Source: Clostridia bacterium
Lineage (GTDB): Bacteria > Bacillota_A > Clostridia > Oscillospirales > CAG-272
Assembly (NCBI GenBank): GCA_017632155.1
Contig: JAGBRZ010000249.1
Location: forward strand, 1-19,055
Reading direction: 5' to 3'
DNA: 19,055 nucleotides
A program made the translations under genes and the position numbers. Positions 9,053-14,442 of this stretch are shown here, piece after piece. A model generated the notes under the pieces. The model was not told the origin of the DNA, ran no database searches, and saw nothing but the letters and a program-made list of their open reading frames with translations. Numbering within the stretch: position 1 is the first letter of the stretch; the number at the start of each line of letters is the position of its first letter.

Positions 9053-9088
9053 ATATGGTTGACCGAAAAAATTAAGGAGGAAAATCAA

Positions 9089-9592
9089 ATGAAAGAAATA
9101 GATTTCTCCGCATTCTTCAAGGAATATTATCCGCTTCTCAGGGCTTTTTGCATCGCAAGGTTTTCACTTGACAGCTATGATGCAGATGATTTCGCTTCGC
9201 AGGCGTTCGGCGACCTGTGGGAACAGTGGGATAACTTCAAAAAATCACCGCCGCCGGCAATTTATTCTTGGCTTTGCCTGCGTGCCCGTTCGCTCTTTAT
9301 CGACGAATACCGCAAACGAAAGCGCGCGCCCGATGAAGTGGAATATAGCGAGGAATTGCACGGCATCCCCGACATCGACGGTGCGGCAGAGGATGAGTCA
9401 TATCAAGACTACATAGCCGAGATACGCTCAAGGCTCGGCGAGCGCGAAAACGAGATATTTACCGCAATGGTCGAACAGTCGCTCGGCATTGACAAAACGG
9501 CGGAAACGCTCGGTATGACCCGCTCGGGAACGCTGACGGCTTGGTACCGATTGCGGACGAAACTCGGCGAAATACTGAAAAATATTTTCTGA
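9089..9592 (+). CDS. RNA polymerase sigma factor, sigma-70 family, ECF-like
   Basis: A 167-residue sigma factor with the two ECF domains. Region 2 is at about 6-80: FFKEYYPLLRAF, then DADDFASQAFGDLWEQW, the -10 recognition/core-binding part. Region 4 is at about 112-167: RLGERENEIFTAMVE, then KTAETLGMTRSGTLTAWYRL, the -35-binding helix-turn-helix. Sigma-1 and region 3 are absent. I chose ATG 9089, which follows a strong AAGGAGG (9074-9080), over an in-frame ATG at 9059 that would overlap the promoter. It is followed at once by a second copy of its promoter and a membrane protein with anti-sigma topology, indicating an autoregulated envelope circuit. Confidence 0.88.
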   Translation: MKEIDFSAFFKEYYPLLRAFCIARFSLDSYDADDFASQAFGDLWEQWDNFKKSPPPAIYSWLCLRARSLFIDEYRKRKRAPDEVEYSEELHGIPDIDGAAEDESYQDYIAEIRSRLGERENEIFTAMVEQSLGIDKTAETLGMTRSGTLTAWYRLRTKLGEILKNIF

Positions 9593-9596
9593 AAAA

Positions 9597-9622
9597 TGAA
9601 AATTATCTCCCCGAAATTCGTT
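9597..9622 (+). promoter_or_regulatory. Putative ECF-type promoter of the membrane GLUG protein gene
   Basis: TGAAAA (9597-9602), 16 bp, CGTT (9619-9622), then TATATGGT: the same boxes and spacing as at 9027-9052. It begins 4 bp after the sigma stop codon, so the membrane protein gene has its own sigma-dependent start besides read-through. Confidence 0.65.
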
Positions 9623-9684
9623 TATATGGTGAAGGCAAAACAGCCGGCCGGCAACCACACACAGCCTTTGAAAGGAGCAAAAGA

Positions 9685-11418
9685 ATGAAAAACTTAAAAG
9701 ATAAAAGCGAAAGACTTCTGCTTGGCAAGATCATCGAAGCCGAAGCAGAATCGCAGAACCCCGATATGAAGCTCGTCCGCGAATGTGCCGATAAGATCGA
9801 AGCCACCGCAGGCAAGCTTACCGAGTCCGAGATCGAAGCAAAGCTTGCAAAGATCACGGGCGCAAAGAAAACAGAAAAAGTACACACAAGATTCAAAAAG
9901 CGCAAACTCCTCGTGTCGCTCATCGCAGCCTCTCTCGCAGTTATTATGGTATCTGCGGCTGCCGCAAGCTCGGTGGGCTGGGGCTGGCTGCCATTCCCCT
10001 TTACCCGTAATTCGTATCAGCTCACCGAGGTGCCCGAGGGCTACGTCGGAATTTATACGGAAGCCGACCTCGACCTCATCCGCAACGACCCCGACGGCAA
10101 CTTTATCCTTATGGAAGATATCGACCTCGGCGGTAAGGAGCACACCCCCATCGGCGACTACCTGAACCCCTTTGACGGCAAGTTCAACGGCAACGGCCAC
10201 ATTATTTCGAACTTCACCATCACCGCATCGGGTGCGGCTATTTGGGAAAAAGTTAGCGTGGAAGAGTACCAAATGCGCTATAAAGCAGAGGAGGAGAAAT
10301 ACGGAAGCGAAAAATATATGTGGTTCAATGAATATGAACTCCCTGCATATTCTTTATTTGGAAAAGACGGAAGATTTAACAGTTTGGAAGGGGTAGAGGT
10401 TCAGGATGAATATGATCTGCAGTATATTTCCGCTATAGGTTTGTTCGGCAACGCAGGAAATGCTACGATTACAGGTCTTGGTGTTGAAAATGCAGCTATA
10501 ACCGTCAGTGATGCAGATTATTCTGCTGTAGGCGTTATTGCAGGTCAGGTAGGATATATAAGTTCTTGTTACGTTAAGAATTCCACTGTTACTGTAGGTG
10601 CTAACACTGCGGCGGTAGAAGAATATGCTAACGGCAAGCAAATTGATATATTTGATTACATGCACGGAAATGCATTGGCTCCCTTTAGCTGTGATCGCGT
10701 TTACAGCATATCTGCCGGAATCCTTTGTGGTGAGGCGTTTGCAATTGATAGCTGCCATACCGACGGTGAACTGACTGCTTCGGGAAATGGAAGTGAGAAT
10801 ATTAATTATTCTACTCTCTCTGCGGGACTTATTGCGGGTTACGGCGGTTCGGCTGTAAGCTCGTACTCAACTGGAAATGTTAATATCGAAGGAAATGTTT
10901 TTGATAGTCAAGGAATTCTCGGAAAGAAATCTCTTGTGCCTTCCTTCATCTATATTGATGCATACAAAACGCTTATTAATGATGGTCTGTGCGGCGGAAT
11001 AAATATTACTGATGATGCAAGTCAGCGTAATAAGGCTCCAGGTGATGTATTGAGGCTTAGCGTACTTTTTTCATACGATTACGATAACGCTCTTTTGAAT
11101 GATCAAAAGTATGCCAATATCGAAGAACTCGAAGAAAATTTCTTTGTCAGTGGACAGGGAACGCAAACAGACGAAAATTTCTGCTTTATTTATAAACTTT
11201 GGGATCGTTACGCGAGAATGCTGATGCAGAATACCATCGAAAAGTACGGTGATATTCCACTAATCGAGCAGCTCTATAAAGACGAGAAAATGCGTATCGG
11301 CACCATCTGCTGCTACACTCCCGAAGGAAAGGAAAAAGCCGACTTCTACGAAGGCTTCGACTTCAGCGACGTCTGGACGATAAAGGGCGGAATGCCCGAA
11401 CTCAAGATTTTCGGATAA
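9685..11418 (+). CDS. Membrane protein with anti-sigma topology and GLUG-type ectodomain
   Basis: A 577-residue protein. A charged cytoplasmic part (1-~70) is followed by the positive cluster KKRK (71-74), one membrane helix (~75-95) and a ~480-residue outside region. That region opens with IYTEADLDLIRNDPDGNF and DGKFNGNGHIISNFTI, then repeats such as GLFGNAGNATITGLGVENAAIT, GVIAGQVGYISSCYVKNST and GLIAGYGGSAVSSYSTGNV, which are GLUG-like beta-helix units, and ends with VWTIKGGMPELK. With the sigma gene directly upstream and a matched promoter, a role as anti-sigma factor and surface sensor is inferred. No HxxxCxxC zinc motif is seen in the N-terminal part. ATG 9685 follows AAGGAG (9672-9677). 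Bases of about 10245-11275 are visibly richer in A+T than either end of the gene. Confidence 0.8.
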   Translation: MKNLKDKSERLLLGKIIEAEAESQNPDMKLVRECADKIEATAGKLTESEIEAKLAKITGAKKTEKVHTRFKKRKLLVSLIAASLAVIMVSAAAASSVGWGWLPFPFTRNSYQLTEVPEGYVGIYTEADLDLIRNDPDGNFILMEDIDLGGKEHTPIGDYLNPFDGKFNGNGHIISNFTITASGAAIWEKVSVEEYQMRYKAEEEKYGSEKYMWFNEYELPAYSLFGKDGRFNSLEGVEVQDEYDLQYISAIGLFGNAGNATITGLGVENAAITVSDADYSAVGVIAGQVGYISSCYVKNSTVTVGANTAAVEEYANGKQIDIFDYMHGNALAPFSCDRVYSISAGILCGEAFAIDSCHTDGELTASGNGSENINYSTLSAGLIAGYGGSAVSSYSTGNVNIEGNVFDSQGILGKKSLVPSFIYIDAYKTLINDGLCGGINITDDASQRNKAPGDVLRLSVLFSYDYDNALLNDQKYANIEELEENFFVSGQGTQTDENFCFIYKLWDRYARMLMQNTIEKYGDIPLIEQLYKDEKMRIGTICCYTPEGKEKADFYEGFDFSDVWTIKGGMPELKIFG

Positions 11419-11537: not shown

Positions 11538-11728
11538 GTCGAATCAAAGAATTGTTAGAGGTGCGGCTGTAAAGAGTATTTGCCGACTGATACCGGGATC
11601 GTGTATCGGCAAAGAAAGGTGCAATCGCCGAAACGGGCTTTCTGCCGGAGAGGGTGCGTTGGGGGACGGGAAAATATCTCGTCAACTGTCACAATGATTT
11701 ATTGTGGAGTGCTGCATATTCGATTGTA
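11538..11728 (+). promoter_or_regulatory. Lysine riboswitch (L-box)
   Basis: Conserved L-box pieces occur in the proper order: TTAGAGGTGCGGC, AAGAGTATTTGCC, GAAAGGTGCAATCGCCGAA, GTGCGTTGGG, AACTGTCAC and GTGGAGTGCTGC. Helices are visible: TTTGCCGA/TCGGCAAA (P2), GACG...CGTC (P4) and CACAAT/ATTGTG (P5). An outer GTCGAAT/ATTCGAT pairing extends P1. The family binds lysine and controls lysine synthesis or import genes. Here it precedes an amino-acid ABC transporter, so lysine is the likely cargo. Confidence 0.88.
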
Positions 11729-11820: not shown

Positions 11821-12696
11821 ATGAAGAAACTCACAGCCATCATCCTTTCGCTCGTGCTCCTCTGCACGGCACTCACCGCTTGCCAGTCGAGAGTAAAGAC
11901 CGACATCAGCGGCGCAAAGAACATCAGCGAGCTCAAGGGCGCGATCATCGCTGCTCAGTCGGATACATTCCACCTCACCGCTCTTGACCAGATCAAGGAC
12001 GACATCACCATCAAGGAATACCCCGACTTCACCGACCTTCTCAACGCTCTTAACTCCGGCGCTATCGACGGTTACGTAGCAGAAGAGCCCACCGCTCTCA
12101 CCGTTTGCGGCACCGATGCGACCCTCGCATACCTCCCCCTCGTTAACAACTCCACCGGCTTCACCGCTACCGATGCAGAGACCGGTATCGCAGTTGCTTT
12201 CAAGACCGGCTCCGAGATGGTTGCAAAGGCAAACTCCGTTATCGCTACCATTTCCACCGAGACCCGCTCCGAGCTTATGAAGCAGATCGTTAAGATGACC
12301 GAGGACATCACCAAGGACGTCGGCGCGCTCGTTCTTACCTCCGATAAGACCGACACATCGAACGGCACCCTCAAGATCGCTATGGAGTGCGCATACCAGC
12401 CCTTCAACTGGGCACAGACCACCGACGTTAACGGTGCAGTTCCGATCGCTAACAACGCGGGTATGTACGCTAACGGCTATGACGTTCAGGTCGCAAAGTA
12501 TATCGCTGCAGAGCTTGGTATGGCTCTCGAGGTTTACCAGTATGAGTGGGATTCCCTCATTCCCGCAGTTCAGTCGGGCGCGGTTGACGGCATCATCGCA
12601 GGTATGAGCCCCACAGCTGAAAGAGAAGAAGAGGTTGACTTCACCGAGTGCTACTACAACTCCAACCTCGTTATCATCTATAAGGTTCAGAAATAA
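11821..12696 (+). CDS. Amino-acid (lysine) ABC transporter binding lipoprotein, apparently circularly permuted
   Basis: A 291-residue lipoprotein: signal MKKLTAIILSLVLLCTALTAC with lipobox LTAC and acylated C21. In ordinary SBP_bac_3 proteins lobe 1 comes first. Here residues ~33-161 are the usual second half (NISELKGAIIAAQSDT, LLNALNSGAIDGYVAEEPTA, GIAVAFKTGSEMVAKAN, SELMKQIVKM). After a linker (162-182) comes the usual first half: LKIAMECAYQPFNW (184-197), NGYDVQVAKYIAAELG, WDSLIPAVQSGAVDGIIAGMSPTAERE and VDFTECYY, ending where the hinge into lobe 2 would normally follow. The order is thus a circular permutation with new ends at the hinge. The L-box and consensus promoter predict lysine binding. 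AAGGAG (11806-11811) selects ATG 11821. Codon use is strongly biased, suggesting high expression. Confidence 0.88.
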   Translation: MKKLTAIILSLVLLCTALTACQSRVKTDISGAKNISELKGAIIAAQSDTFHLTALDQIKDDITIKEYPDFTDLLNALNSGAIDGYVAEEPTALTVCGTDATLAYLPLVNNSTGFTATDAETGIAVAFKTGSEMVAKANSVIATISTETRSELMKQIVKMTEDITKDVGALVLTSDKTDTSNGTLKIAMECAYQPFNWAQTTDVNGAVPIANNAGMYANGYDVQVAKYIAAELGMALEVYQYEWDSLIPAVQSGAVDGIIAGMSPTAEREEEVDFTECYYNSNLVIIYKVQK

Positions 12697-12703
12697 CAGA
12701 TAA

Positions 12704-13471
12704 ATGAATTTCTTTGTACAAGTTTGGCAGATAGTTGTCAAATATTATCCGTATCTTTTAAAAGGTATAGGAATGACTCTTCTGATCTCGCTCGTCGGCA
12801 CTTTGATCGGTCTTGTTATCGGTCTGCTTACGGGTGTTGTCAGAACTACACCTTTTTCAAAAAACAAGGCGCTGCGCATCCTTCATAAGATCCTTAACGG
12901 AATCATCGCGTGCTATATCGAGATATTCCGCGGCACTCCTATGATGGTTCAGGCGATGGTTATTTATTGGGGTTACGCATTTATGAACGGCGGTCAGACC
13001 CTGCCCCTCATTCCCGCAGGTATCTTTATCGTATCGATCAACACCGGTGCATATATGGCGGAGATCGTCCGCGGCGGTATCATTTCGATCGACAAGGGTC
13101 AGTTCGAGGGTGCGTATTCGGTTGGTATGACTCACTGGCAGGCAATGATCCACGTTGTTATCCCGCAGGTTATGAGAAATATCCTTCCTTCGATCTCGAA
13201 CGAGTTCGTTATCAACATCAAGGATACCTCGGTGCTCAACGTTATCGGCGTTGCCGAGCTTTACCACGTTGCGGGCACGATCAAGGCTATGAGCTTCCAG
13301 ACCTTTCAGACCTATGCGGTCATCTGCGTGCTCTACTTCATCATGACCTTCTCGGTGACAAGAATTCTCCGCACGTTCGAAAAGAAGCTTTCGGGCAGCA
13401 AGAATTATACCATTTGCGGATCGCAGTCGGATCCCGCCGCTGAAATTCATATCAAGGAGGAAGCAAAATGA
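12704..13471 (+). CDS. Amino-acid ABC transporter permease (HisM/GlnP family)
   Basis: A 255-residue membrane subunit of a polar-amino-acid importer. The opening [27 protein letters not shown] is the family's first helix region, followed by further helices around 60-80, 90-115, 150-175 and 205-235. The EAA loop that docks on the ATPase is [21 protein letters not shown] (about 140-160); [12 protein letters not shown] and [21 protein letters not shown] are diagnostic. The C-terminal tail after ~240 is hydrophilic. It starts 7 bp after the binding-protein stop without a strong ribosome site of its own, so coupling is likely, and overlaps the ATPase start by ATGA. Confidence 0.94.
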
Positions 13472-14196
13472 ACGAGATAGTACTTGAACATCTTGAAAAA
13501 AGCTTCGGCGACCACAAGGTCCTCCTTGACGTAAACCTTACCGTTAATAAGGGAGAGGTCATCAGCGTTATCGGCTCCTCGGGCTCGGGTAAGAGCACGA
13601 TGCTTCGTTGCATCAACCTCCTTGAAGAACCCACGGGCGGCGTGATCAAGTATAAGGGCGATGATATTCTTTCGCTCAATCTTTCAAAATACCGCACACA
13701 GGTTGGAATGGTCTTCCAGCAGTTCAATCTCTTTGACAATATGACGGCGCTTGAAAATTGCGTCAAGCCGCAGATGAAGGTGCTCAAGCGCAAGAGAGAA
13801 GAGGCGGAGAAGATCGCGAAGGAATATATCGAAAAGGTCGGAATGTCGGCGTATATTAACGCCCGTCCCTCACAGCTTTCGGGTGGACAGAAGCAGAGAA
13901 TTGCAATCGCACGCGCTCTTTCGATGAACCCCGAAGTCATTCTCTTTGACGAACCCACCTCGGCACTTGACCCCGAAATGGTCGGCGAGGTACTTGATGT
14001 TATCAAGAGTCTTGCAAAGTCGGGACTCACCATGATCGTCGTAACTCACGAAATGGCATTCGCCCGCGAGGTCTCCGACAGAGTTATCTTTATGGACGGC
14101 GGCATCGTCCTCGAGGAAGGCACTCCCGACGAGCTTTTCGGAAATCCGAAAATGCCCAGAACGAGAGAATTCCTTTCGAGATATCTTAACGGATAA
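13468..14196 (+). CDS. Amino-acid ABC transporter ATP-binding protein (GlnQ/HisP family)
   Basis: A 242-residue ATPase. Walker A is GSSGSGKST (about 33-41), the Q-loop is [11 protein letters not shown], the signature is [15 protein letters not shown], Walker B is [20 protein letters not shown], and the switch is [11 protein letters not shown]. It is the energy-coupling subunit for the adjacent permease and probably forms a homodimer. AAGGAGGAAGC just upstream of ATG 13468 lies inside the permease gene and the two overlap by 4 bp. The last two bases of its TAA also form the first bases of inverted-repeat element C. It completes the riboswitch-controlled lysine import operon. Confidence 0.96.
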
Positions 14197-14442
14197 AAAG
14201 TGAACAGTGGTTAGTGGACAGTGGACAGAAAGTTGCGAGCAGATAATTTTATTTTGATATTTGCATTCCATTGTGCCGACAGATAATTTAATAAAAAGAA
14301 ATCGGATATTAAGAAGATTGCTTCAAAAATATCCGATTTCTTTATTATTTCAATTTTGCAGTAAACAACATTTTGAGGTACTGAACAGAATTATTTTGTC
14401 GCGTCTTTCTGTCCACTGTCCACTAACCACGGTTCACTTTTT
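14195..14442. mobile_element. MITE-like element C (248 bp, 38 bp inverted ends)
   Basis: The left end 14195-14232 and right end 14405-14442 are inverted copies matching at 37 of 38 positions. The ends contain a heptamer rhythm (CAGTGGT TAGTGGA CAGTGGA). The interior has no gene, but has a 16 bp perfect hairpin that can terminate both flanking transcripts. The element sits exactly between convergent genes, touching the stop of the ATPase gene and ending 3 bp before that of the XRE-S24 gene. No target duplication is evident. Confidence 0.8.
14293..14350. terminator. Bidirectional intrinsic terminator inside element C
   Basis: A perfect 16 bp stem: AAAGAAATCGGATATT (14295-14310) and AATATCCGATTTCTTT (14328-14343), with a 17-base loop. 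T-rich tails occur on both strands: TTTATTATTT on plus and CTTTTTATT on minus. It serves the lysine operon and the convergent XRE-S24 gene. Confidence 0.85.

Follow-up and report, generated by a model that had tools for sequence, protein, structure and literature searches.

A circularly permuted family-3 solute-binding lipoprotein in lysine-riboswitch operons of gut Clostridia

Does a predicted lipoprotein encoded behind a lysine riboswitch carry the two halves of a substrate-binding flytrap in reversed order, and if so, does it still serve the importer encoded next to it? The question is raised by a 19,055-nt stretch of a Clostridia bacterium genome (contig JAGBRZ010000249.1 of GCA_017632155.1; the window), in which the ORF at 11821-12696 on the forward strand encodes a lipoprotein of 291 aa plus stop, with a signal peptide and a lipobox (Cys21). 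A sequence-only reading had proposed a circularly permuted binding protein broken at its hinge and linked to lysine. In our reading, to which we give a probability of about 90%, it is the solute-binding protein (SBP) of a PAAT-type ABC importer under lysine-riboswitch control, whose substrate is probably lysine, and its chain underwent a single permutation in the ancestor of one group of gut Clostridia. The locus contains the following features.

11548-11722, forward strand: lysine riboswitch aptamer (RF00168; cmscan 97.4 bits, gathering score 30, model positions 1-182 of 182)
11821-12696, forward strand: family-3 solute-binding lipoprotein of 291 aa (plus stop) with circularly permuted chain (ORF, Pfam/NCBIfam profiles, lobe HMMs, rotation test)
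12704-13471, forward strand: polar amino-acid ABC permease (PF00528 and TIGR01726 above cut-off; 3' of the SBP gene in 29 of 29 permuted loci)
13468-14196, forward strand: ABC ATPase (PF00005; present downstream at all 29 permuted loci, though truncated at L016 where the contig ends)

With a lysine riboswitch plus a permease and an ATPase, the locus has the make-up of a lysine ABC importer operon. Directly 3' of the ATPase gene, at 14195-14442, lies an element of 248 bp, its inverted ends 59 nt long and 86% complementary, that looks like a miniature inverted-repeat element; a nearly identical genome (G001) contains 91 matches to it (E ≤ 0.001, both orientations counted), ten of them with 79-99% identity across at least 200 bases, another genome (G004) contains 11, and none was found in a third (G003). 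Upstream, a sigma-70 region 2 protein (9059-9592) overlaps a mechanically called 625-aa ORF (9541-11418) that probably includes a membrane segment and matches no Pfam family at E ≤ 1; the two products may be a sigma/anti-sigma-like pair.

When we searched for a full-length SBP_bac_3 (PF00497) match in normal order, the native chain gave 76.1 bits (gathering cut-off 26.4) with query residues 216-288 on model positions 20-91 of 132 only; Pfam covers just this C-terminal part because the halves stand in reversed order. The same reversal is seen in phmmer alignments to the PDB: in 4zv1, query 182-288 corresponds to chain residues 10-103 and query 30-142 to 107-215, and the half order is likewise reversed in the alignments to 6h30, 4ymx, 4oen and 3tql (five alignments shown in all), the second-half matches being individually weak (i-Evalues 0.0007 to 180). 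Family 3 has its N-terminal half followed by its C-terminal half; here both are found, the other way round.

The rotation test is decisive. A profile built from 31 canonical relatives was run against the native chain, against the mature chain in every possible rotation, and against 20 shuffled chains. The native chain obtains 155.9 bits (mature chain 156.1) over model positions 3-112 only, and the mature chain, when rotated so that any residue between 158 and 176 comes first, obtains 267.0 bits in one alignment spanning model positions 3-243 of 244; no shuffled chain exceeds 0.5 bits. The rotated chain is thus matched at full length across its old termini (267.0 vs 155.9 bits), which bears out the circular permutation put forward in the sequence-only reading, and the reach of the match agrees with its statement that both halves are complete. 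The general models agree with a permutation and gain little on rotation: TIGR01096 goes from 86.9 bits in two stretches to 93.4 bits in a single stretch (20-238 of 250), and PF00497 from 76.1 to 80.4 bits (model positions 20-127 of 132). Against the PDB the rotated query gives continuous alignments, e.g. residues 7-237 to residues 10-215 of 4zv1, with 76.2 vs 70.1 bits.

The chain can be divided as follows, all parts being on the forward strand.

11821-11883, forward strand: signal peptide and lipobox (LTAC, residues 18-21), with Cys21 as predicted lipid anchor (read from the sequence)
11923-12303, forward strand: residues 35-161, homologue of the canonical second half, which comprises lobe 2 and the C-terminal helices leading back to lobe 1 (HMM L2, alignment with the canonical C-terminal half)
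12304-12363, forward strand: linker between the old C- and N-termini, residues 162-181, an ordered coil in the model (pLDDT, length conservation)
12364-12693, forward strand: homologue of the canonical first half, i.e. lobe 1, the first hinge (YYNSN) and the first lobe-2 strand (283-288), residues 182-291 (HMM L1, model strand E283-288, PDB alignments)

Cys21 was placed by what we take to be the lipobox pattern; it is invariant in the 16 rows of one alignment (A1) and conserved in at least 90% of the 41 rows of another (A2). That roughly the first 160 residues are lobe 2, and that a linker of about 20 residues joins the old C- and N-termini, had both been predicted, and residues 35-161 and 162-181 correspond to these parts. 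The position of the break had to be corrected. We set the hinge in the lipoprotein by presumed analogy with GlnBP; the chain contains the whole of the first hinge strand and runs on through the first lobe-2 strand before it ends, instead of stopping at the hinge strand as had been claimed. Around the equivalent of the break, the canonical sister L114 reads ...NYYISNLVIITKK-DSAYASAKSLEDFAGAKIS...; in permuted proteins the C-terminus falls at the first lysines (...YYNSNLVIIYK), and the chain starts, about 10 residues past the Cys, with sequence matching SAKSLEDFAGAKIS. The chain end lies 12-14 residues from the YY motif (YY counted) in 30 of 30 permuted sequences, the one in the window included. 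These alignments place the new termini in a predicted lobe-2 loop past the first lobe-2 strand, about one strand (some 10 residues) beyond the first hinge. A break exactly at the hinge was ruled out, since strand 283-288 beyond the hinge is present. With the break in this loop, the chain is still covalently continuous at both hinge crossings, and the lobes would be expected to close in the ordinary way.

The one clear physical consequence of the permutation is that the lipid anchor, attached to lobe 1 in canonical proteins, now sits on lobe 2 close to the hinge. In L114 a canonical spacer of 17 residues separates the lipid Cys from lobe 1; the permuted linker is similar in length, so we speculate that it may be this former spacer. 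Three further cysteines are conserved to different degrees among 41 permuted rows (Cys190 in 41, Cys277 in 33, Cys96 in 26), with a disulfide or redox role possible.

The AlphaFold model of the lipoprotein is confident (pLDDT 92.3, pTM 0.83), and an element-by-element comparison with the model of a canonical relative, also confident, shows the same secondary-structure elements in rotated order. A structure search superposes lobe 1 at 1.0 Å, and the best full-length sequential match among those listed is of OpuAC type, but with an rmsd of 5.0 Å and 14% identity. The lipoprotein is predicted to fold as an ordinary two-lobe flytrap. One could also imagine a domain-swapped dimer, in which lobe 2 of one molecule pairs with lobe 1 of the other; swapping is conceivable for a chain that is cut within a lobe and has a single linker holding its old ends, and nothing in the sequence forbids it. 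Set against it are the confident prediction as a single chain, with linker blocks at mean pLDDT 93 (residues 161-170) and 97 (residues 171-180), and the conserved linker length: the distance from the helix motif (L/I)M to MEC is 31-37 residues across 30 permuted sequences, and 36 or 37 in 22 of them. We consider a swap very improbable, and keep to the single-chain flytrap.

The reversed order is a property of a whole clade and not a lone oddity. All 120 homologues listed share 69-98% identity with the protein (order was read in those fetched, and one, P0047, has three lobes). A scan of species genomes yielded 73 loci, on whose ORFs we placed the lobe profiles L1 and L2: the order is L2-L1 in 29 of 29 loci (L001-L029) and L1-L2 in the other 44 (L030-L073, among which L072 is truncated and the ORF of L043 is divided between two frames). 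SBP, permease and ATPase genes follow one another in this order in all 29 permuted loci and in the canonical sisters L114-L116. The lysine riboswitch is upstream in 28 of the 29, and L026 has no upstream DNA, so that the proposed link to lysine holds in 28 of 28 permuted loci with upstream sequence; four of four additional permuted genomes have the riboswitch as well. Among seven permuted members (21 pairs), dN/dS is 0.066-0.19.

These data speak against reading the rearranged gene as a non-functional relic, whether decaying or mis-assembled. The sources are mostly metagenome assemblies, and rare three-lobe chimeras exist among them, namely P0047 (L1-L2-L1') and P0122 and P0123 (both L2-L1-L2'). 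Against this, 29 loci have a common order and breakpoint, the homologues are numerous and close, dN/dS is low, and operon and riboswitch are intact. The common order, operon, dN/dS (rounded, 0.07-0.19) and riboswitch across 29 loci argue that the gene is no artefact; given 29 separate genome records, an assembly artefact is very unlikely as the source of the gene order, and we give almost no credence to a relic. As for the three-lobe proteins, we rejected them as ancestral intermediates because they are too near modern permuted proteins (residues 1-262 of P0122 match P0133 without a difference, and stretches of 68 and 158 residues in P0047 recur exactly in P0133); more probably, a canonical and a permuted gene recombined recently to give them or were fused during assembly.

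Canonical lysine-riboswitch SBP operons of Bacillota provide the closest comparison (L079/L114, L080/L115 and L116, and loci of Paenibacillus, Lysinibacillus and Lactococcus). Like the operon in the window, they have a permease, an ATPase, the mapped binding residues and, in most of those scanned, the riboswitch; unlike it, they have the order L1-L2 with the lipid anchor ahead of lobe 1. The sisters L079 and L080 share 65-69% identity with the window protein in lobe 1 and 42-49% in lobe 2. Counting the loci scanned, the riboswitch is found in 11 of 11 canonical loci of one set, in five of seven of a second (not at L119 and L120; L118 repeats L065), and in a third at L056, L068 and L071 and not at L053, which has 118 bases upstream (L129 and L130 repeat L036 and L056). 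Some canonical loci encode SBP and permease as a single ORF (L031-L034, L039, L041, L054, L121, L122 and L124; hosts include Lactococcus, Pilibacter, Lacticaseibacillus, Enterococcus and three further genomes), whereas the genes are separate here.

Eight positions equivalent to ligand residues of LAO do not vary among 41 permuted rows and are essentially the same across 31 canonical rows; among them D11 and D161 are present as E and F52 as W. Where LAO has S69, S70 and Q122, the permuted proteins have A, G and F. The LAO numbering is the one we presume, and it agrees at D11, D30, F52, S72, R77 and Q122 with mutants named in PDB titles. By sequence comparison, operon, riboswitch and mapped binding residues match those of the canonical sister, and lysine is the best reading of the ligand from the mapped residues, riboswitch and transporter together. 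Lysine would bind between the lobes via the usual residues and pass to the adjacent permease.

Alternatively, the flytrap might no longer be a lysine transport receptor, and bind another amino acid or have a sensing role. In favor of this, lobe 2 has drifted from the sister somewhat further than in canonical pairs: at equal lobe-1 identity, lobe 2 of the permuted proteins averages 0.47 to the sister (56 pairs) vs 0.52 for 615 canonical pairs, the pairs being non-independent. Opposed to such a change are the riboswitch upstream of nearly all permuted loci, the permease and ATPase directly downstream, the eight binding residues kept, and the finding that none of 57 matched genomes of the same family and 65 of another family (E ≤ 1e-35; 8 or 12 candidates scored per genome) carries both forms, as expected if one form replaced the other. 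We therefore regard a change of role as unlikely and favor the lysine receptor.

To place the permutation we computed a midpoint-rooted tree from 88 SBPs, 30 of them permuted and 58 canonical, all brought into common order; it left out L043 (split), L072 (truncated), L113 (lobe-2 score at cut-off), paralogues L086-L100 (below score limits) and repeats L074-L078 and L101-L103. The permuted proteins form one set (support 100/95), which canonical L079 and L080 join as sister (100/97). With a single permuted clade and a canonical sister, one permutation in a lysine importer explains the 30 proteins; its direction was probably from canonical to permuted, given that all other relatives, and the family members with solved structures, have the canonical order. 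A quick permease tree, in which long branches are flagged, groups the permuted operons with L114-L116 (99) and needs two changes to separate the orders.

Full-length (permuted) matches are found in 20 of 295 genomes of the same family, two of 200 of another family, three of 394 of the order and one of 398 of the phylum (G001). Partial matches, read as canonical (order was verified where sequences were fetched or both lobes were listed), occur in 37 genomes of the same family, 63 of the other family, 24 of the order and two of the genus. A survey of close genomes for both orders, as had been advised, found within the genus of G001 permuted genes in seven of 13 genomes and canonical ones in two of 13, in different genomes. 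Genome-level counts used whole genomes of related loci, and one full-length permuted gene was found in every one of the 19 genomes searched, which represent 19 of the 29 permuted loci. The presence in two families, together with both orders in one genus, suggests horizontal exchange of the lysine operon.

The likely origin would be an in-frame tandem duplication of the SBP gene, followed by loss of the first half of the first copy, which would retain its signal peptide and second half, and by a stop arising past the first half of the second copy. Among eight long-frame loci (352-704 aa) we found no tandem that could be the ancestral intermediate; each contains one canonical SBP, fused to a permease in three.

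Permuted binding proteins are known elsewhere, namely the OpuAC type and TpMglB-2, and natural permutation of ABC binding proteins has been described (PMC4990184, PMC2395249). OpuAC/EgtUC-type proteins (glycine betaine, ergothioneine) belong to another ligand family, and OpuAC shares 12-14% identity with the permuted protein; nothing points to a shared origin with the present clade, for which a canonical sister is known. The sugar-binding lipoprotein TpMglB-2 (Tp0684, 'Type Ic / Cluster Bc') is likewise a naturally permuted, lipid-anchored ABC binding protein and has homologues in Gram-positive gut bacteria (PMC4990184). As described there, it differs from the present case in its Type I fold and glucose ligand, and its permuted part, only 13% identical to EcMglB, may have been acquired from another gene, whereas both halves of the window protein align to the canonical sister. 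Titles and parts of abstracts in the open-licence PMC literature gave no permuted family-3 amino-acid binding protein among the matches listed.

In PMC4990184, anchoring is raised by the authors as a possible reason for the permuted topology of TpMglB-2. Selection for a shift of the lipid tether from lobe 1 to lobe 2, which would change how the protein is seated on the permease, is a possibility that we raise only tentatively for the present clade. If true, this would be the third tethered binding protein to reach a permuted topology, after the OpuAC type (which we take to be tethered) and TpMglB-2, and tether position, not ligand, would drive the permutation of binding proteins.

To our knowledge, natural circular permutations are usually old and have no close unpermuted counterpart. 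Here an unpermuted sister, at the lobe identities given above, is found in a riboswitch operon of like make-up, and even a genus with permuted genomes includes canonical orthologues. The sister pair is a natural experiment: a change of chain order without loss of function becomes testable, and the role of tether position in docking and transport can be tested directly.
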